64,000 nt of DNA from Agapetus fuscipes (lineage: Eukaryota > Arthropoda > Insecta > Trichoptera > Glossosomatidae): assembly GCA_951799405.1 (NCBI GenBank), contig OX637342.1:16663298-16727297 (forward strand), in the 5' to 3' direction. The position numbers were made by a program, and so were the translations under genes. The notes beneath the pieces were generated by a model that ran no database searches, was not told the origin of the DNA, and was given only the letters and a program-made list of their open reading frames with translations. Below, in pieces: positions 9,222 to 56,832 of the stretch. The number at the start of each line of letters is the position of its first letter. Positions within the stretch are counted from its first letter, which is position 1.

Positions 9222-9377
9222 CTTTTCATCAACAGCCACCTGTTTGACGTTCCACAAGAACTCCATGATGGCAATGATGAAGGCGATAGCGACTCCTGCA
9301 CCCAATACCACAAACACACCACCAACGTTGGCAATACCCAGCTCTCCGGCAGAGGCATCTGATGCGCTGGTGTCGTC
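9222..9377 (-). CDS. Kainate-type glutamate receptor, M4 exon
   Basis: 156 bp, 52 codons, phase 0 at both ends. The acceptor is TTTCCAG and the donor AAG|GTAAGA. It encodes an acidic linker (DDTSASDASAGELG), then IANVGGVFVVLGAG and a hydrophobic helix ending IMEFLWNVK. This is the M4 segment and juxtamembrane stretch of kainate/AMPA receptors. The last exon (cytoplasmic tail) was not found at 1-9200, so it may lie outside the window or diverge. Retention of the following intron would add about 40 residues, partly from antisense SINE A, before a stop at 9099. Confidence 0.92.
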
Positions 9378-9868: not shown

Positions 9869-9984
9869 CGGACATTTGTTGCTGACGTACATTTCTTTCC
9901 ACCATTTCGTCTTCAAAGCGTGAAGTTTACCTTCTTCTTGCATCTTCAATACTGCTCCACTGATTGCAGTGCGATAAGGAGAAT
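9869..9984 (-). CDS. Kainate-type glutamate receptor, distal S2 exon
   Basis: 116 bp; starts in phase 1 and ends in phase 0, with donor CCG|GTAAGT. It encodes [20 protein letters not shown] followed by HALKTKWWK and a Cys-Pro end. This is the last part of the S2 ligand-binding lobe, with the family's EEGKLH and KWW motifs and the Cys that forms the conserved lobe-2 disulphide. Confidence 0.93.
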
Positions 9985-10618: not shown

Positions 10619-10850
10619 TGACTGGCATGGCGATCCCATAGCCCTTGGAGTCCAGTTTCCCTCCCACCTGCTGAAGGTCACAGTTCCTCTCTACTATGTA
10701 CTCGATGGACGTGGACTCCATGATGAAAGCGTACAGCCTCTTGCCCTTGATGACGCGGTCCTTGCCTTCGTCATTGTTGCTCACGAAGACAGAAGGCTTG
10801 GCTGATTCCATGGCGGTGTACATGCGCTGATATGTAGAGAAGTTGGAGTC
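10619..10850 (-). CDS. Kainate-type glutamate receptor, S2 exon with binding Glu
   Basis: 232 bp; phase 0 start, phase 1 end. The acceptor is TTTATAG and the donor GTCA|GTAAGT. It encodes DSNFSTYQRMYTAMES, a basic loop, and YAFIMESTSIEYIVERNCDL followed by SKGYGIAMPV. The Glu in MEST aligns with GluA2 E705, which binds the ligand amino group. The Cys in RNCDL is the partner of the conserved S2 disulphide. Confidence 0.94.
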
Positions 10851-11417: not shown

Positions 11418-11616
11418 TTTAAAGAAACCCAGAGTAGAACCTCCAGTCACAGCTCCATACTTGATTTTGGTCTGCTTGGCCAGGTCTTCGGCGCTGTCGA
11501 TGGTGGCATCCATGCCCTCCTTGGTGAGGAAGGCAGCCAGGTTAGCGGTGTAGGAGGAGATCATGATTAGGGTGAAGAACCACCACATGCCGGCCACCAT
11601 GCGCGTGGAGACGGCC
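11418..11616 (-). CDS. Kainate-type glutamate receptor, M3 exon
   Basis: 199 bp; phase 2 start, phase 0 end. The acceptor is TGTTCCAG and the donor AAA|GTAAAA. It encodes [20 protein letters not shown], then the invariant [11 protein letters not shown] gate motif of M3, then [20 protein letters not shown] and GFFK. Ser-Thr in GGST aligns with the S654/T655 glutamate contacts of GluA2. The exon accepts either pore exon: both supply the first two bases of the junction codon. Confidence 0.95.
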
Positions 11617-12253: not shown

Positions 12254-12391
12254 CTGGGCATGATGTCAGATCCCTGCTGCAGGAAACTGCCCATGCCAAT
12301 CCAGAGGCAGTTGATGAAGGTCAGAGAGTTCTCCAACTCCGGGGAGTCACTGTTGCAGGGGTGAGGGTTCTGCCACTCGGCTGGGGACATC
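12254..12391 (-). CDS. Alternative pore-loop (M2) exon a, Gln at Q/R site
   Basis: 138 bp with 1-nt and 2-nt split codons at its ends; acceptor GTGGCAG, donor CCCAG|GTTACT (weak). It encodes MSPAEWQNPHPCN and the pore loop GMGSFLQQGSDIMPR. The first Gln of QQG (codon CAG) is the vertebrate Q/R selectivity-filter site, and Asp is the +4 acidic residue. By hand alignment 26 of 46 residues match exon b. Same length and phases as exon b imply mutually exclusive use. Confidence 0.93.
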
Positions 12392-12569
12392 CTGCCACCA
12401 TCATAACACCCAAACACCGACACCAACACCAAAAACAACAAGGAAAGCCAGACATCAAAAGCGCGATCACAACATAACACGTAGGGCAATACGAAAATCC
12501 ATTACTCAATGGATCAAAAATGGTTTGTAAAGGGGAAGAGAGGGGACTTGATTTTATTTAAGCCAGATT

Positions 12570-12905
12570 TGAAAAGATGTGTGTACATCGTAACTATACA
12601 CAATCAACAACGTTTGGAGCACATATACATACGAGGATGATTTTTTTTTCGACAAGATAAAAATGCGCCGTGCCACTCATCAAGAGCCCTTTCAATCACG
12701 AATGAGATTTTTTATGAATATGGCGTTTCAGTGCTCCTTTAAAATGCCACAGATTCCAAAACCAACACTCCTTGTGGCAGTCAGTTCCAACCCATCGGTC
12801 TGGCAATCCGGAAAGCGCGATCCCCAAAATTGATGCATATTTGACGGCGAGGCTGCGTCAACCTAGCAGTATCACTCCCTGCTGACCACAGTGCCTTAAG
12901 TTATT
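12570..12905 (-). mobile_element. LINE 3'-end relic between the pore exons
   Basis: Reverse copy of the sequence at 36533-36800. The minus strand reads LTQPRRQ..ASILGIALSGLP-like, then a TALKRHIHKKSHS-like C-terminus, and the 3' UTR block ATCATCCTCGTATG. It belongs to a non-LTR RT with the GFKGTLKRHL-type ending, and it is broken. Confidence 0.55.
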
Positions 12906-13261
12906 TTCAGCCACTGTTTGGTCCTGACTGTTTTGGTTCATAAGGACCGTTTCTCACATGGCAACTTCAAAACGGGGAAAACAGATGGTATGAACGAGTA
13001 AAAAAAACACGTAAAATCAATGGTACAACAAGAACAATCTGCAATATAATCATGATTAAATTTGGAAAATATCTGAAAAGAGATTAAAACAAATTTACAA
13101 ATACATGTGTCGCTAATATTATCCACTGATTCTTCAATTTAATTTACAACGAAAAATAGTATTAAACATTGATTACATGGACATTTTTATAGCTTCATAT
13201 ATAAAATTCGACATTTACAACACGAAATTTCACAAAACAACATTTATACATCCGTTTGGCA

Positions 13262-13336
13262 CTCGCTTGACCAAGTTTGGACAAGGTTTGACAAATTTTG
13301 GGCCACAATTGACCAACTTTCGACCATGTTTGGACC
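13262..13336 (-). promoter_or_regulatory. 11-nt intronic repeat array beside the exon b donor
   Basis: Reading the minus strand from 6 nt inside the intron, about seven head-to-tail units of 10-11 nt occur with consensus GGTCCAAACTT: GGTCCAAACAT, GGTCGAAAGTT, GGTCAATTGT, GGCCCAAAATT, TGTCAAACCT, TGTCCAAACTT, GGTCAAGCG. No such array follows exon a. Its position suggests an intronic splicing regulator for the Gly-type pore exon; this is inference. Confidence 0.6.
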
Positions 13337-13342
13337 GCTTAC

Positions 13343-13480
13343 TTGGGCATGACGTCACACCCTTGTCCCATCATGGAGCCGAGGGTAAGCCAGTAGCAGT
13401 TGAGCATATTCCATGAGTTCTCTAAGCCGTCTGGTGACTTGTTGCATGGATGAGGATTCTGCCATTCCACCGGAGACATC
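13343..13480 (-). CDS. Alternative pore-loop (M2) exon b, Gly at Q/R site
   Basis: 138 bp, same phases as exon a; acceptor AACATCAG, donor CCCAA|GTAAGC (strong). It encodes MSPVEWQNPHPCN and the pore loop TLGSMMGQGCDVMPK. Gly (codon GGA) replaces the Q/R-site Gln; the next Gln, Gly and the +4 Asp are kept. GGA differs from CAG or CAA by two bases, so single A-to-I editing cannot explain it. It lies upstream of exon a in gene order. An open frame and intact splice sites argue against a dead duplicate. Confidence 0.92.
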
Positions 13481-13800
13481 CTGATGTTTGCAAAACGGTG
13501 ATTTGTAGAAATTTAATAAATATATGATAGAGTGTAACTCTTGTCGTTATTGCGATCCAAAATAATATTTTCTTCAGTATAACCAAAAACAAGGCACATA
13601 TTTTATAGTCTAAGATATTCAGATGCAGCTGGAGGAAAATGATATTTCTAATAAGAGTTGAAGGAGATTGACAAAAGAAAATATTGGCGGTAAATAAGAC
13701 TTTTTGGTCAAGATAAAAAGTAAAATTGAGACTCCACGATCAGTTGTTGTTATTTAAATATATTCGTTCAGAGATATTAAATGGCTTTAGAAATTGATAT

Positions 13801-14285: not shown

Positions 14286-14509
14286 CTGGCCAAAACGAAG
14301 AGTAAAATCGAGACTCCTAGATAAGCAGTTGCCATGTAGATCCACACGTCCAAGGAGAGAGGTTGCAGGAAGGAGAACAGATCCGGTGGCTGCTTGGTGG
14401 GCTTGCTGAACAGAATGCTGATGCCCAAGGTCATGAAGGGCATGGTGAAGTCCACGGCTGTACGTCTGTCGTAGGTGATGGTCAGGTCACAAATAGCTAA
14501 GTCAGCTTT
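14286..14509 (-). CDS. Kainate-type glutamate receptor, end of S1 and M1 exon
   Basis: 224 bp; phase 0 start, phase 2 end. The acceptor is ATTTCAG and the donor GCCAG|GTGAAG. It encodes [20 protein letters not shown], then [14 protein letters not shown] and the M1 helix up to ILLFVLAR. Thr and Arg in TITYDRR align with the T480/R485 ligand contacts of GluA2. The neighbouring conserved Pro is Asp here. Its donor must join one of two pore exons. Confidence 0.94.
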
Positions 14510-15600: not shown

Positions 15601-15751
15601 CCCATCCAAGAGCTCCTTGATGAGACCATTCCATTGTTTGGTATCTTTATTATAATTTCCATAATTTTTATCGGGCGCCAGAGTAAAGATGTAATCAAAG
15701 TGAAGTATTTTTGCTATGCCGTCTATCAAGTCCATGGAATATCCTTCATAT
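15601..15751 (-). CDS. Kainate-type glutamate receptor, S1 exon
   Basis: 151 bp; phase 2 start, phase 0 end. The acceptor is TTTTTCTAG and the donor GGG|GTGAGT. It encodes YEGYSMDLIDGIAKILHFDY, then ending WNGLIKELLDG. The Tyr of EGY aligns with GluA2 Y450, which packs over the bound glutamate. The exon joins in frame to KADLAICDL of the next exon. Confidence 0.94.
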
Positions 15752-16578: not shown

Positions 16579-16859
16579 CTTCGATTTCCAGTGAGGATTT
16601 CTCCATCAGCCGCATGGCGCTCCATCAGAAATGGCGGCCCTAGCCTGGAGGTGACGATGAAGGTCTTGTTCTGCCACTTCTCCGACAGGATATTGATGAC
16701 GTCACCCTCGGATCTGGTGTAGTTGATGCCGCTGCTGGAGTCCCAGATGCCGATCTTCTTGAAGCTGCCCTTGGAGAACTCGATGATGTCCAAGGAGAAG
16801 TCGGCCCTCCTTCCGTCAGCGTCGAAGCGGATGGATCCAGACAGGCCGTTGGAAGGTTT
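16579..16859 (-). CDS. Kainate-type glutamate receptor, ATD-S1 junction exon
   Basis: 281 bp; phase 0 start, phase 2 end. The acceptor is TTTTCTAG and the donor CGAAG|GTATCA. It encodes KPSNGLSGSIRFDADGRRAD, the end of the amino-terminal domain, then IGIWDSSSGINYT and KTFIVTSRLGPPFLM, the first strand of S1. It follows a 13.5-kb intron. Confidence 0.93.
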
Positions 16860-18345: not shown

Positions 18346-18975
18346 TGTTATGTTTAGATTGAAAGGTATCTTCAGGATACTTACATCCGGCTAGCTCTCA
18401 TCAGCATCACTCTCAGGGCGTGGGGGTCTTTCTTTCGGTTGCTCACTTGTACTTTGGGAAGGGTTTTATAATTAAAAGATAAAGTTAACATGAACAAATA
18501 AGGGTTTATTACTGTACTAATATGGGGGGGAAAAGGGGAAATAAGGGATTGGCCAGACCTACAGGTTTTCACCAGAACACTCCCTATTCCGTTGGCTGGA
18601 GTTCTAAACGGAAGGCCTGGGGCAGCGCCCCAGGCTAGCGGCGGTTCACGAGGCGGACGTCTCCACACGTGGAAGCCCCTGGGTGGGCGCTCCTATGCCT
18701 CTGGTCCACAAGGCGGGTGCCTTGCTGGCAGGAAATCCAAGTAGATGGGGGGGGAGGGAGCTCCATTGTAGTGCCCCCTCTTGCACCGCTTGGTGCTTGG
18801 TCGCTGACGTCTTAGTCGGTTGACATCTTGCCGGGAACTAACGAACGACGGCCTGATTAGTTCATACGGTGCAGTTCGGCCGCTTCCGTGACCGTTCGGC
18901 TCCGCTCGGCCCACAAACACACACTGCACACTTCGGGATTGTTTTTTATAATATGTTATTTAAAATAACATAACA
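18346..18975 (-). repeat. 3' LTR of non-coding LTR element
   Basis: 630 bp, TG..CA. It contains a G/C-rich centre (18590-18900) and, on the minus strand, an AATAAA at the TTTATTACTG position near 18510. The 95- and 78-codon frames inside are LTR sequence, repeated exactly in the other LTR, not genes. Confidence 0.9.
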
Positions 18976-21193: not shown

Positions 21194-21823
21194 TGTTATG
21201 TTTAGATTGAAAGGTATCTTCAGGATACTTACATCCGGCTAGCTCTCATCAGCATCACTCTCAGGGCGTGGGGGTCTTTCTTTCGGTTGCTCACTTGTAC
21301 TTTGGGAAGGGTTTTATAATTAAAAGATAAAGTTAACATGAACAAATAAGGGTTTATTACTGTACTAATATGGGGGGGAAAAGGGGAAATAAGGGATTGG
21401 CCAGACCTACAGGTTTTCACCAGAACACTCCCTATTCCGTTGGCTGGAGTTCTAAACGGAAGGCCTGGGGCAGCGCCCCAGGCTAGCGGCGGTTCACGAG
21501 GCGGACGTCTCCACACGTGGAAGCCCCTGGGTGGGCGCTCCTATGCCTCTGGTCCACAAGGCGGGTGCCTTGCTGGCAGGAAATCCAAGTAGATGGGGGG
21601 GGAGGGAGCTCCATTGTAGTGCCCCCTCTTGCACCGCTTGGTGCTTGGTCGCTGACGTCTTAGTCGGTTGACATCTTGCCGGGAACTAACGAACGACGGC
21701 CTGATTAGTTCATACGGTGCAGTTCGGCCGCTTCCGTGACCGTTCGGCTCCGCTCGGCCCACAAACACACACTGCACACTTCGGGATTGTTTTTTATAAT
21801 ATGTTATTTAAAATAACATAACA
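21194..21823 (-). repeat. 5' LTR of non-coding LTR element
   Basis: 630 bp, apparently identical to the other LTR, which implies recent insertion or gene conversion. Confidence 0.9.
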
Positions 21824-30319: not shown

Positions 30320-30472
30320 AATTTTCATAAATTGCATTAGACCAAGGCCATGTTCCCAAAGGTCCTGTCTGTCACATGGCAGGGACTTTGTCTCAATGCC
30401 TTGAGATTCTTCAAGTTCAGAAAAAGCTAATCCAAAATGGTTGACAGCATCACTCATGAGAGCAGTCTCCAG
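30320..30472 (-). CDS. Kainate-type glutamate receptor, ATD exon 5
   Basis: 153 bp, 51 codons, phase 0 on both sides; acceptor CTTTTAG, donor ATT|GTGAGT. It encodes LETALMSDAVNHFGLAFSEL and ends DLWEHGLGLMQFMKI. It resembles the ATD lobe-2 region of kainate receptors (ALMYDAV, W.HG..L..YM). It is followed by a 13.5-kb intron loaded with mobile DNA. Confidence 0.9.
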
Positions 30473-30615: not shown

Positions 30616-30804
30616 CTTGACAGTCTCTGGTCTGATATCTACAGGTCTGCCATTTCTCATTTCTCCTTGTTCCCAATCATTCACAGCAATTTTCAGCTCA
30701 TAGTTTGTTGGGTCTATCATACGGAAACCAGTGATGTTGGAGCGACTGTACTGAAGTTCAGCAAAATCTATAGTGTGGGCATCCAGGGACGTCAGGACGT
30801 AGCT
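30616..30804 (-). CDS. Kainate-type glutamate receptor, ATD exon 4
   Basis: 189 bp, 63 codons, phase 0 on both sides; acceptor TACTTCAG, donor AAG|GTGATT. It encodes SYVLTSLDAHTIDFAELQYS, then NITGFRMIDPTNYEL, typical of the LDxxxLDLxxFxxSxxNITGFRLxD stretch in insect and vertebrate kainate receptors. NITG is a potential N-glycosylation site. The intron to the next exon is only 143 bp. Confidence 0.92.
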
Positions 30805-30945: not shown

Positions 30946-31157
30946 CTGGTAATCTCCCATCAGATTCACTTCATTGGCCTGCCTCAGATATTCAACAATA
31001 CGGTCAGCTTCGCAGTCCAGAATTATGTGAGCCTCACCAGATGCTTTGATTTCTTTCAATAGCGGACGATTATCACCTCCAACTTCTAGCTGCCGCAGTG
31101 TGATGGGTGGATCACTTGGACCGTGCTTCTTCAAAACTTCTTGGAGTCGCACTAGAC
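30946..31157 (-). CDS. Kainate-type glutamate receptor, ATD exon 3
   Basis: 212 bp; phase 1 start, phase 0 end; acceptor TTCTTCAG, donor CAG|GTGAGA. It encodes LVRLQEVLK, an ITLRQL segment, and LLKEIKASGEAHIILDC ending EVNLMGDYQ. These match the ATD Rossmann-like lobe motifs (LLKEIK, I.LDC, Q...VGMM..Y). Confidence 0.92.
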
Positions 31158-34072: not shown

Positions 34073-34333
34073 CTAAATCGTCTTCATACAGGATGGTGTA
34101 CCCTTTCCAATCATAGTCCTGCACCAGCGCGGCAAATGCCTTGGACAGCACCTGCTGGTCAGGGTACAGATTGACGGCCATCCGAGGATGCGTGGGCGGA
34201 GGAGACGCTGGTTGCCAGGCTGTCTGAAGATGTGGAACCTCTCGGGCCTGGCACGTGGACTCCACGATTCCTCTGCAAGGAATGGAAGGAGGACCGAAGA
34301 TGGCAGCTACACCCTCGGCAGTCAGGTTGCAAG
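34073..34333 (-). CDS. Kainate-type glutamate receptor, ATD exon 2
   Basis: 261 bp, phase 1 at both ends; acceptor CTTTCAG, donor TTAG|GTGAGT. It encodes CNLTAEGVAAIFGP, ESTCQAREVPHLQ, YPDQQVLSKAFAALVQDYDW and KGYTILYEDDL. This is the classic kainate ATD pattern (GVAAIFGP, C...E.PH.Q, W...T.LYE). NLT is a possible glycosylation site. Confidence 0.95.
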
Positions 34334-42311: not shown

Positions 42312-42458
42312 CGATTTTCCCGGCCTTGAAGCTGTCATCCTCTCCTATGAAGTGTACGACGGGCGTCAGCTCCACTCGGCGGTTGTGCATGTTGACGCGG
42401 TCAATAGTGTTGCGGAAAGCTATCTCTGCATCGCGGTTCGTCTCTAGGAAAATACCTC
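42312..42458 (-). CDS. Kainate-type glutamate receptor, first ATD exon seen
   Basis: 147 bp, phase 1 at both ends; acceptor TGTTTCAG, donor ATCG|GTGAGA. It encodes GGIFLETNRDAEIAFRNTID followed by HNRRVELTPVV and DSFKAGKI. It corresponds to the start of the mature ATD just after the signal peptide and the IRIGG motif. The upstream exon with the initiator and signal peptide was not identified in 42459-64000. Confidence 0.93.
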
Positions 42459-53023: not shown

Positions 53024-55975
53024 TCACAAATAGTCACTCAACCAGGCTGGGGGTCTTCGTGGTCTAGAAGGTCTTTCCAACCGTCCTTCTTCCACTGGAC
53101 TGTCCTCTTCTGATTCCTCACCTTCCTGGCTTCTCGGGCTGTCTTCCTCCTGATGTGTTTCATTTGCCATCGGTTCCTCTGTTTCTTCTTCAAACAGATC
53201 TGATAGATTTAATAAGCGTGCATTAGCTCTTCTATTGACACTTCTACCAGGGTCCGTTTGCTTGACGCTATCTATCTTCCGCAGATCCAGCACGTGTCTT
53301 GGCATACCATCCACTTCAATATTGTTTACCGAGATGACTCCCGTTACTCTCCCAAGCCTCCACTGGGAAGTACATTTCGGATCTGATGGCTTCACTGCTA
53401 CAACGTCGCCAGCCTGAAACTCGGATGACAGCTTTTCCTGGAGTCTCACTAGGGCTGAAGGATGTTTCCAGGCATAGGAGTGAACCTGTCCAGAGGGTGC
53501 TGCACCCTGGTCACCCTGACTCTTAGCAGCCAGGTTGTACCAAAACACCGCCTGCAAAGGGTTGCTACCACTTCTGGCCGCCGTCCTCTTTATTGTACGA
53601 TGATGCCGTTCAACAATGCCATTCCCTGCTGGACGGTGAGCCGCTCGAAACCTCCTACTTACTCCCCACTTGTTGCACATGTCAGCAACCCTGTGCGAGC
53701 GAAATGCCGTGCCATTGTCCATCAGTAATTCTGCGGGTGGACCTCTTTCCCGAAAGATTTCCTCCAGATGCGAAATGACAGAAGTGGCATTTTCGGACTT
53801 TACTTCCCGCCATATAGCAAATCTGCTCGGTCCACAGTCGATTAGTGTAAGAAAGCATCTCCCATCAAAATGAGTCACGTCAACGGCCAGACGGCTCCAC
53901 GTATTCGGGACACTAAGGTTGCCCGCCTCATGGGAAGATGGTGAGGGGTCAATTGTTTTACATTTTATGCATGATCGCACACAGAGCTCCACGTCACTCC
54001 TTGTCACCCCGGGATTTACCATTTTTGCAAGGTGCAGCGTTCGATCCACACCGAAGTGGTGTTGAGCATGCATGTCTTCCAGAGTAACGGCGCAGATGGA
54101 AACGCTCTCTCCAATTGGCTTTACTTTGGCATTACACCTTGCCCAGGCTTTACAGACCCTAGTGAGTGGATCTGCCTTATTCCTGCAAGACTCAATGAAG
54201 TCGATTGACAGAGCTAGGCCAAATTCTTGTACGACCTCTTTTAACAATCCCAACCGCCGTTTTACAAGCATCTCTGACATCCCTGCAACTTTTACACGGT
54301 TACACCCAGTCAGTGTAGACCTCACCCAACACAGCACTGTTGCTGAATCTGTAATTATCTTCAAGGTCCTGAGATTCCACTTGAGAGCAAGATTCACCCC
54401 TTTCAGCACAGCATCCAATTCGGCTAGGTTTATATGACCCACATCAGACGCCTTTCGCAGCCATGCAGCATCTTCGACAGTCTTTCCATCGACTTCCAAG
54501 GTTACTCCCAGGGCCAGGGAGCTTGCATCGCAGAAGACCGTGGCATCGTTTGTGGCTTTAGGGACAGACCAGAATCCACGAACTGGATCATCAATGCGCA
54601 CTTTTATCACCAGATCCTCTGCCATTTGCTGTGCTCTGTCACCTATATAATCATCCCACCTTTGGCCTTCGCTTTCTCTCTTCAAGAAGCTGCAAGCCAC
54701 TCTCAGCCATCCACACACTGGATAATGTCCTATTAGTTTGCCGCAGATTGAGAACAATTCCCTTTTGCTAAGTCTCGATGCAGTCGGGAGAGCTGGAACA
54801 CTGTTGCCTCTTTTGAAGAGGAGTCTTTTGCTTTTGTCCCGCTCAACACACAGTCCAAGAACTTTGGCGCCCTCCAACTCCTGAGGCGGCTTAGTTACGA
54901 GGCCGTAGGCTAGTAGATGAGCCGCAACCTCTTCGGCAGATATTACCTCCTCATTCACAATAATGTCATCTATGTAGCTGTCGGTGCCTTGCCGCATTCT
55001 TTCATCCAGTGAGAGTACCTCGTTCACGATCCGGGACATTATTTTTGGCCCACACTTCAAACCAAAGCCTAGTCTTGTCAGGCAATATGTTTTTCCTTTA
55101 TACTTGACCAGCTGGTATTTCCACAGTTTTTCATGTACGTTTATCTGGAGATATGCGGACTGGAGGTCGAGCAGCTTGATTGATCCTCCCATCCTCCTCC
55201 ACTTCCTAAGGGTTTCATCACAGACCGCTGCATCCTCACCAGTGTGACACTGCACACTTTCATTGAGCTCCCGATAATCCATCACGGGGCGCACCTTCCC
55301 CTTATTTCTCTGAAGTACCGCCATCAGAGGAAGAATACCAAGCGAGCTCCCTTTCCATGGCTTAAGCCAGCCCTCGGCAATCCACTTTTGGATTTCTTTG
55401 TCAAATGCCTCCTCTGCTTCTGGTGACTTTACACTTTTATAACACTCCACAGTGTTGGCCAGCTCAGCAGGTGCATCCTTCCAAACCCAACTCACACACC
55501 AATGTTTTCCATTAAATGCCGCAGTGAAATCTTTGTCCTCAATTGACAAACTTGGTGGCGAGGCAACACTAACACAGCCGACATCTTGACTTCTGCCCTT
55601 AGCAAACTGAACCCGTGCATCACCCAGTATAGTCACACCGCCCATCTTCCCAATGACGTCCATCCCTAGCACCGCATCAACAGCGCTGAACAACTTTGCA
55701 GCGAGTACGCAGTCTACTGTCAGGGCTACACCATGCACACTTATCCTGGCCACACCTTGGCCCTCACACCTCACGTGGCTGCCATCCACAGCGATCACGT
55801 CCCCCACTGGGCTGAAGACCCTGCACAACCCACTCCTGAGCACGGTGCGCGAGCACCCTGAATCAACGAGAGCACGCACTTGCTTCCCGTTAACACTGAT
55901 GTCTATCACTGGCAGCGCCTTTAGTCCAGATGTCGGGGAGCTACCGGCGCACCAGCTCCCCGACTGCCGTTTCCC
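53024..55975 (-). CDS. pol: Pol polyprotein: protease, RT, RNase H, integrase
   Basis: The open frame runs 53024-56074 (1016 codons). Expressed pol should start at the frameshift near 55969-55975 (residue about 34). Residues: DSG protease active site 71-73; RT with VRPVMDYRELN 261-271, LLDLQSAYLQI 301-311, YIDD 367-370; RNase H Asp 515, Glu 552, Asp 576, late Asp 635 (NKADPL); integrase zinc finger His 673/681 with Cys 702/705, then D732, D786 and E822 (exactly 35 residues between the last two). The C-terminal tail is acidic/Pro-rich. All catalytic residues are present and the frame is unbroken. Stop 20 bp before the LTR. Confidence 0.93.
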   Translation of the reverse strand, partial: GKRQSGSWCAGSSPTSGLKALPVIDISVNGKQVRALVDSGCSRTVLRSGLCRVFSPVGDVIAVDGSHVRCEGQGVARISVHGVALTVDCVLAAKLFSAVDAVLGMDVIGKMGGVTILGDARVQFAKGRSQDVGCVSVASPPSLSIEDKDFTAAFNGKHWCVSWVWKDAPAELANTVECYKSVKSPEAEEAFDKEIQKWIAEGWLKPWKGSSLGILPLMAVLQRNKGKVRPVMDYRELNESVQCHTGEDAAVCDETLRKWRRMGGSIKLLDLQSAYLQINVHEKLWKYQLVKYKGKTYCLTRLGFGLKCGPKIMSRIVNEVLSLDERMRQGTDSYIDDIIVNEEVISAEEVAAHLLAYGLVTKPPQELEGAKVLGLCVERDKSKRLLFKRGNSVPALPTASRLSKRELFSICGKLIGHYPVCGWLRVACSFLKRESEGQRWDDYIGDRAQQMAEDLVIKVRIDDPVRGFWSVPKATNDATVFCDASSLALGVTLEVDGKTVEDAAWLRKASDVGHINLAELDAVLKGVNLALKWNLRTLKIITDSATVLCWVRSTLTGCNRVKVAGMSEMLVKRRLGLLKEVVQEFGLALSIDFIESCRNKADPLTRVCKAWARCNAKVKPIGESVSICAVTLEDMHAQHHFGVDRTLHLAKMVNPGVTRSDVELCVRSCIKCKTIDPSPSSHEAGNLSVPNTWSRLAVDVTHFDGRCFLTLIDCGPSRFAIWREVKSENATSVISHLEEIFRERGPPAELLMDNGTAFRSHRVADMCNKWGVSRRFRAAHRPAGNGIVERHHRTIKRTAARSGSNPLQAVFWYNLAAKSQGDQGAAPSGQVHSYAWKHPSALVRLQEKLSSEFQAGDVVAVKPSDPKCTSQWRLGRVTGVISVNNIEVDGMPRHVLDLRKIDSVKQTDPGRSVNRRANARLLNLSDLFEEETEEPMANETHQEEDSPRSQEGEESEEDSPVEEGRLERPSRPRRPPAWLSDYL

Positions 55976-56634
55976 TTGTCGCAATGTTTGGAGAGGTGGC
56001 CATCCTCCCCACAACTCCAGCAAGTGACACGCGGCTGCTCCGTGCAGAACCTGAGGAGATGCGGTCCCCCGCACCTGAAGCAGCGTCTCCCGCCACTTTG
56101 CGGCCCTGCAGCCTTCCGCCTGTCTTGAGCCACTGCAACGATTGGCTGGCTCACATACTCGGCCATCAGGGCTCTGGCTCGCTCCACGATACTTGACAGC
56201 GGCATGGTGCCCACGGCAGGAAGAGCGCGCAGCTCACGCGAAACCGCTGAGGGCAGCCCCACCACGAACGCCTTCATGAGGAGAGAGTCCGCTGTAACCC
56301 CCGCCAGCCGCGCCAGTCGCCTCAGGTCCGTGATGTAAACATCTACTGGTTCATCACGCCACGTGCGTCGGATAAATTCCTCGTAAGCCACGAACGGGTT
56401 CGTGGCAAACGCACTTATCAAGGCGTCTTTGATAGACCCGGCATTCCTTTTTTCTGCATCGCCGAGTTCGTTATACACAGCGAACGCTGGTCCCTCCAAA
56501 AAAAGAGGAATGATTATCGCCACATCCTTCTCCCCTTTAAGTTTGGCGACGAGCTCCAGCTTCGTTAACCACTGTATAACATCGCCTTCCCCGTCAAAGC
56601 ACCTCACCAAATCACCCATCTTCGCGCTCGACAT
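55921..56634 (-). CDS. gag: Gag with two zinc knuckles
   Basis: 237 codons from ATG at 56634 (MSSAKMGDLVRCFDGEGDV). The frame is open further upstream into the LTR, but this ATG follows the primer site. The capsid-like part has FVAYEEFIRRTWRDEPVDVY and L.RLARLAG. Two knuckles near the C-terminus: CFRCGGPHLLRFC (CX2CX3HX4C, one residue short) and CWSCGEDGHLSKHC (canonical). Packages the element RNA. The last codons overlap pol and hold the slippery site. Confidence 0.9.
   Translation of the reverse strand: MSSAKMGDLVRCFDGEGDVIQWLTKLELVAKLKGEKDVAIIIPLFLEGPAFAVYNELGDAEKRNAGSIKDALISAFATNPFVAYEEFIRRTWRDEPVDVYITDLRRLARLAGVTADSLLMKAFVVGLPSAVSRELRALPAVGTMPLSSIVERARALMAEYVSQPIVAVAQDRRKAAGPQSGGRRCFRCGGPHLLRFCTEQPRVTCWSCGEDGHLSKHCDKGNGSRGAGAPVAPRHLD
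55932..55975 (-). promoter_or_regulatory. -1 ribosomal frameshift signal between gag and pol
   Basis: Slippery heptamer GGGAAAC (55969-55975) lies in the gag frame as aaG-GGA-AAC. A 4-nt spacer follows, then a perfect 11-bp GC-rich stem, GTCGGGGAGCT with AGCTCCCCGAC (55954-55964 with 55932-55942), and an 11-nt loop. pol is in the -1 frame. The spacer is slightly shorter than typical. Confidence 0.85.
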
Positions 56635-56653
56635 ATTTACTTTTGGGGGGGGA

Positions 56654-56665
56654 GCCGAAATAGCT
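56654..56665 (-). other. Primer-binding site, tRNA-Phe 5' end type
   Basis: The minus strand directly after the 5' LTR reads AGCTATTTCGGC, the exact complement of the first 12 nt of animal tRNA-Phe (GCCGAAATAGCT, from memory). There is no TGG-start site. This implies priming by a tRNA 5' fragment, as copia does with initiator tRNA-Met. Confidence 0.55.
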
Positions 56666-56832
56666 TGTGGCGAAGAAATAGTCATGTAAAACAGTCCACG
56701 TGGTTTCGCACACACACGCACTTGTCACACGTCTTGATACCTCGGTGTCTGTCACGCAACTCGCCGCGTGCGCATTCCCGCGTGGCGGCGTCTGCTTCGC
56801 TTGCTGACACGGGTGCGTTCGCTGTCACCACA
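56666..56832 (-). repeat. 5' LTR of gag-pol element
   Basis: 167 bp, apparently identical to the 3' LTR. Transcription on the minus strand should begin within it. Confidence 0.9.

Follow-up and report, generated by a model that had tools for sequence, protein, structure and literature searches.

No control point of calcium permeability in glutamate receptors is better known than the Q/R site, which in vertebrates is recoded by RNA editing; unedited vertebrate receptors with a Gln filter are calcium-permeable and are blocked by internal polyamines. Several described systems resemble, each in part, the caddisfly gene considered here. As described in PMC8257547, Q/R editing of GluA2, GluK1 and GluK2 changes the same pore residue after transcription and affects calcium permeability, although it is an A-to-I change which converts Gln to Arg only, whereas the caddisfly gene offers the swap of a 46-codon exon and a change from Gln to Gly. 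The same paper describes the flip/flop exons of AMPA receptors, which are likewise tandem exons in an ionotropic glutamate receptor and are mutually exclusive, but these are 115-nt exons at the end of S2 and their double inclusion causes a frameshift, which is not so in the present gene. In NALCN, according to PMC3557258, one gene also uses spliced alternative exons to swap selectivity-filter residues, and these filter exons are conserved across many invertebrates, with one form lost in some lineages; unlike the caddisfly gene, however, NALCN is a four-domain channel of the voltage-gated type, and the swap is between E and K (EEEE, EKEE or EEKE) rather than at a Q/R site.

A small non-canonical residue at the Q/R/N site, comparable to the Gly found here, is present in placozoan GluE1 (Ser) and in the epsilon receptors of Mnemiopsis (Gly), and polyamine block is lost in both, as measured for the former and inferred for the latter in PMC12226733; in contrast to the caddisfly gene, alternative splicing of these receptors is absent from the main text of that paper. 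Nearest of all is the paralogue KaiR1D of insects, with two pore exons between M1 and M3 in the same position, order and phase, and among the rows listed these either both carry Gln or, in Hymenoptera and a louse, include one with Arg, where the caddisfly gene has Gly. Individual isoforms in public annotation, the alternative filters of NALCN, flip/flop and Q/R editing are already known; the choice of the Q/R-site residue by exon is apparently new, in that no description of alternative Q/R-site pore exons in insects was recognised among the open-access papers listed, with subscription papers outside the scope of the search.

The stretch of DNA analysed, hereafter the window, comprises 64,000 nucleotides of the genome of Agapetus fuscipes. 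Its minus strand carries an open kainate-type glutamate receptor gene, of which 14 exons were mapped between 42458 and 9222; every one of them is open with AG/GT at its boundaries, and with either pore exon they encode 819 residues. In transcript order, and all on the minus strand, the amino-terminal domain is encoded by exons at 42312..42458 (the most 5' one found), 34073..34333, 30946..31157, 30616..30804 and 30320..30472, followed by shared exons for the end of this domain and the start of S1 (16579..16859), an S1 ligand-binding segment (15601..15751) and the end of S1 with M1 (14286..14509; Pfam Lig_chan-Glu_bd). Downstream of the two pore exons lie the shared exons for M3 and the start of S2 (11418..11616; Pfam Lig_chan), an S2 ligand-binding segment (10619..10850), the end of S2 (9869..9984) and M4 (9222..9377). 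The mapped span runs from the amino-terminal domain to M4, and neither a signal-peptide exon nor a cytoplasmic tail was found in the exon mapping. The intron between M1 and M2b also contains the remains of a copy of the M1 exon's 3' end together with some adjoining intron (13657-13774, minus strand); this decayed copy has no splice donor, and its local alignment score of 68 exceeds the best of 200 mononucleotide shuffles (41).

Pfam matches above cut-off were obtained for PF00060 in the frame of the M3 exon and for PF10613 in the frames of the M1 and S1 exons, while among the best 60 matches listed in a comparison with solved structures GluK1-3 came first, with AMPA receptors behind. The translation carries the motif SYTANLAAF, an Arg after the LTIT of S1, GST and MES-E, of which we take the first to be the gating motif and the others to be glutamate-contacting residues. 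Both protein searches and a gene tree place the gene among insect genes named kainate receptors. Judged by its sequence, the gene is a kainate-type ionotropic glutamate receptor subunit, and it is predicted to form a glutamate-gated channel.

Between M1 and M3 two pore exons follow one another in transcript order, first exon b (M2b; 13343..13480, minus strand; SMMGQGCDVMPK), with Gly at the Q/R site, and then exon a (M2a; 12254..12391, minus strand; SFLQQGSDIMPR), with Gln. Both are 138 bp long, in the same phase and flanked by AG/GT, so that either links M1 (..GCC AG) to M3 (G GCC..) in one phase. Exon a translates as RMSPAEWQNPHPCNSDSPELENSLTFINCLWIGMGSFLQQGSDIMPR and exon b as RMSPVEWQNPHPCNKSPDGLENSWNMLNCYWLTLGSMMGQGCDVMPK. 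When exon b is aligned to the solved GluK2, its Gly sits at the first Q of MQQG, which we take to be the position named the Q/R site; the Gln of exon a at this position is read from the length and register that it shares with exon b. The filter codons are CAG CAG GGA in exon a and GGA CAA GGG in exon b, and the +4 Asp is present in both. The coordinates, lengths, phases and Q/R residues of the two exons given in an earlier note on this DNA were all found correct on re-reading, and the conserved +4 Asp which it reported is seen in both translations.

The two exons are identical at 26 of 45 compared residues and differ at 49 of 135 nucleotides, and 11 of the 26 common residues are written with different codons. 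Of 20,000 neutral simulations run to the same divergence, starting from exon a under a single simple substitution scheme, 24% remained open and none was open with the observed identity, which makes chance or simple decay a very unlikely source of the likeness. On this evidence both exons have the appearance of constrained sequence; the earlier note had judged that both look functional.

The reading that we prefer, at a probability of roughly 0.85, is that this caddisfly kainate-type subunit takes its pore loop from one of two tandem, interchangeable exons. Inclusion of M2a would give a Gln filter that, by analogy with unedited vertebrate receptors, should be calcium-permeable and polyamine-blocked, while inclusion of M2b would give a Gly filter which keeps the +4 Asp and should conduct with less polyamine block and less rectification. 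PMC12226733 reports that Ser at the Q/R/N site lowers both calcium permeation and polyamine block, that lower polyamine block with Gly at the site can be inferred from GluR6 mutants, and that the +4 Asp matters for block; from this evidence the Gly isoform is predicted to be less rectifying than the Gln isoform. The Gly must be genomic, since A-to-I editing of CAG yields only CGG (Arg), in agreement with the earlier point that GGA is out of reach of CAG by one edit. That both exons are used in A. fuscipes, that the choice between them is near-exclusive and that the products differ physiologically is what we infer from these observations.

With residues 1-470 as the query, the best match is Arctopsyche grandis ‘kainate 2-like isoform X1’ (P0121), at 55% identity; larger query regions such as this gave matches, and a protein search with exon b alone gave no candidate. 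In a quick gene tree of 43 receptors, made with the pore segment left out, with SH-aLRT as its only support measure and without an NMDA or AMPA outgroup, the window gene is sister to P0121 (99), followed by the fly and mosquito ‘2-like’ genes (100), and the enclosing group (98) also has louse, hemipteran, dragonfly and mayfly genes, with KaiR1D apart; several branches of this tree are long, including those of the window gene and P0121, and the ostracod rows are loosely placed. A tree of the pore exons themselves (44 exons, 46 columns), many of whose other forks lack resolution, groups M2b with four dipteran Gly pores from mosquito, sandfly and midge orthologues (97/89) and M2a with the corresponding pore in Arctopsyche, also a caddisfly (96/84). 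Among the matches in two protein lists, each of the 14 dipteran orthologues whose pore has Gly shows that single pore only, and the Arctopsyche orthologue, seen through one representative of a 4-member cluster, has the Gln pore only; no fly or caddisfly among these matches shows both pores for this gene. Both pore exons are, on this sequence evidence, old, and the Gly common to Diptera and the Agapetus caddisfly suggests that this residue is older than the split between the two within Panorpida. Pores were classed by the residues after the Q/R site, those with Cys there being the GCD type and the others the GSD type; exon a has the GSD motif yet stands nearer the GCD class in the pore-exon tree, with the tree that holds all 20 GSD exons together also retained (AU p 0.396), and it may be either an old GSD exon or the product of a later re-duplication.

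Paired pore exons are found in two insect kainate receptor genes, and the layout, not unique to the window gene, is more widespread than the earlier note stated. The KaiR1D of the same genome (L009) has tandem pore exons reading QQSCD and then QQGSD before M3, the first of 141 bp, as against 138 bp in the window gene, and the second of 138 bp. Five of the seven stretches in which it aligns to Arctopsyche KaiR1D (P0127) are at 93-98%, and the remaining two (75% and 47%) correspond to the two pore exons plus some intron. The two-exon pore layout is old, since this sister gene has a matching pair. Isoforms which each use a single pore exon under one gene name are annotated in several insects: X1 and X4 use one exon and X2 and X3 the other in Schistocerca gregaria, and the same division is seen between X1 and X2 in S. 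americana, X2 and X1 in Macrosteles, X5 and X4 with X6 in Pieris napi, and X2 and X1 in Maniola jurtina. The pair is seen in the ‘2-like’ group too, as tandem-pore models in Ladona, Laodelphax, Rhodnius and Bemisia and, in two mayflies (Neocloeon and Cloeon), as different single pores. Both pore exon types are also present in one ostracod, Notodromas.

A search of the Agapetus genome with exon b at E up to 1 returned nine pore-like matches, two in the window gene, two in KaiR1D and the remaining five at as many other loci, of which the last two are weak. At one kainate-like locus (L014, 6615-6731, minus strand; C11:2704115-2704234) an Arg stands at the Q/R position (FLRQGSG); this is the sole pore exon matched there, and its match to exon b is weak.

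Filter residues were surveyed in 183 listed proteins, drawn as the best 120 of 7622 and the best 120 of 547 matches and non-independent, with several isoforms per species. Rows with one class comprised GSD-only with Gln (89), GCD-only with Gln (41), GCD with Gly (13) and GCD-only with Arg (4), and rows with two classes had Gln in both (20), GCD Arg with GSD Gln (4) or GCD Ala with GSD Gln (3). Five had no pore match, two of them joining M1 to M3 and the others being truncated or motif-less, and four were single odd rows (P0001, P0011, P0017 and P0149). P0001 has two GSD pores and is apparently a fused model; the other three have, by their remaining sequence, a GCD-type exon in which Cys has become Ser, and were moved to the GCD class. 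After these moves all 119 GSD segments in the listed proteins have Gln, a count which includes P0121 by motif although it may belong to either class, whereas in the GCD segments the residue is Gln in 61, Gly in 14, Arg in 10 and Ala in 3. The Arg rows belong to nine Hymenoptera (Vespa, Dufourea, Bombus, Mischocyttarus, Apis cerana, Osmia, Andrena, Venturia and Diachasmimorpha) and to the louse Menopon, and, going by the translations of gene models, this Arg would be genome-encoded.

Taken together with the paired exons of other insects, there appears to be a splice-selectable Q/R filter in insects. We favour with moderate confidence a bolder view, that the kainate receptors of insects, perhaps of pancrustaceans, contain an old pore cassette of two exons, one fixed for Gln and the other at liberty to change its filter, which would give arthropods a splice-based counterpart to the Q/R editing of vertebrates. 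The free exon would then appear to have changed several times, to Gly in Diptera and the Agapetus caddisfly, to Ala in Hemiptera and to Arg in Hymenoptera and, separately, in the louse.

Considering how a choice between the two exons might be made, their acceptor tracts stand out, that of M2a (6 pyrimidines of 16) being the weakest of the 14 exons and that of M2b (9 of 16) the third-weakest, whereas the count is 7 at S2 and 10-13 at the 11 exons that remain; weak tracts of this kind fit regulated exons. RNA pairing of the docking or editing type was sought in the pore-exon region by scans for repeats, folds and complementarity, and none was found beyond shuffles: the ungapped pairing between the last 53 nt of each exon and the next intron was equalled by 4 of 60 mononucleotide shuffles in each case, folds of each exon with about 100 nt had z of 1.25 (exon b) and -0.69 (exon a), and a short complementary match of exon b to the intron that follows it (I12) fell within the shuffle range. 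Just 3' of the M2b donor, at 13255-13332, a 36-nt stretch is repeated imperfectly in four overlapping copies, their starts spaced by 10, 11 and 21, which may be a splicing element or a simple repeat.

The anatomy of the locus shows no feature that would force an exclusive choice. With 951 bp of intron between M2b and M2a a steric block is not expected, and since 138 is divisible by three, splicing errors would escape policing by frameshift decay; the frame stays intact with both pore exons or with neither. This is one of the grounds for supposing that both exons are normally joined, giving two consecutive pore loops, or that they are loosely spliced cassettes with double or skipped products common. 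Another is that 28 of the 183 listed proteins from relatives, 29 if P0001 is counted, are double-pore models, among them named isoforms in Vespa velutina, Bombus pyrosoma and Helicoverpa zea, and that 2 of 183 join M1 straight to M3 in frame (Pararge aegeria jg16324, P0136; Fopius arisanus isoform X6, P0138). Against this, 149 of the 183 have a single pore, predictors may fuse adjacent in-frame exons, and no working example with two re-entrant loops in the M1-M3 segment is known to us, so that we regard such splicing as unlikely; the double-pore models themselves may represent rare products, artefacts of prediction or genuine forms. The proposal of the earlier note that the filter is chosen by splicing is supported in part, by alternative pore exons that each group with their own relatives and by single-use isoforms in KaiR1D; a strict either/or choice would go further than this evidence. 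Both exons in tandem, which that note had named as evidence against its proposal, are what those 28 models carry, all of them from other species.

That one of the two pore exons is dead or never spliced is rated as less likely still. It would agree with the occurrence, among the matches listed, of b-type pores only in the dipteran orthologues and of the a type only in the Arctopsyche representative, and with the weak acceptor of M2a, whose donor reads CAGgttact, but the frames and all splice dinucleotides are intact in both exons, their similarity is far above the neutral simulation and each groups with pores from other species. Least probable of all is an origin of the two exons in overlapping or nested receptor genes, for which one might cite the several ligand-gated-channel matches clustered elsewhere on the same contig; in the open-frame lists, inspected by eye, and in a family search, the pair is surrounded by one M1 and one M3 exon, with no second S1, S2 or M4 in those lists and only the decayed, donor-less M1 fragment in addition.

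If insects do have a splice-selectable filter, splicing may achieve in them what RNA editing achieves in vertebrates; the problem would then have been solved independently, and neurons could mix filters. The exons would provide subunits that occur naturally in Gln/Gly, Gln/Ala and Gln/Arg versions and are identical in all else, and the regulation of calcium entry and polyamine block through exon choice could be tested directly, bees (Arg/Gln) and bugs (Ala/Gln) being two examples. Should the bolder view of a two-exon cassette be true, bees and wasps would have a genome-encoded Q/R switch.

Elsewhere in the window, 18384-18959 and 21232-21807 show the same set of predicted open frames and are apparently copies of one repeat, and the long open frames of 1069 and 267 codons at 53027-56724 (minus strand) may belong to a mobile element. 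Contigs C8, C12, C4 and others in the genome hold many ligand-gated-channel matches within open frames of 473-771 codons, which are probably intronless chemosensory ionotropic receptors.
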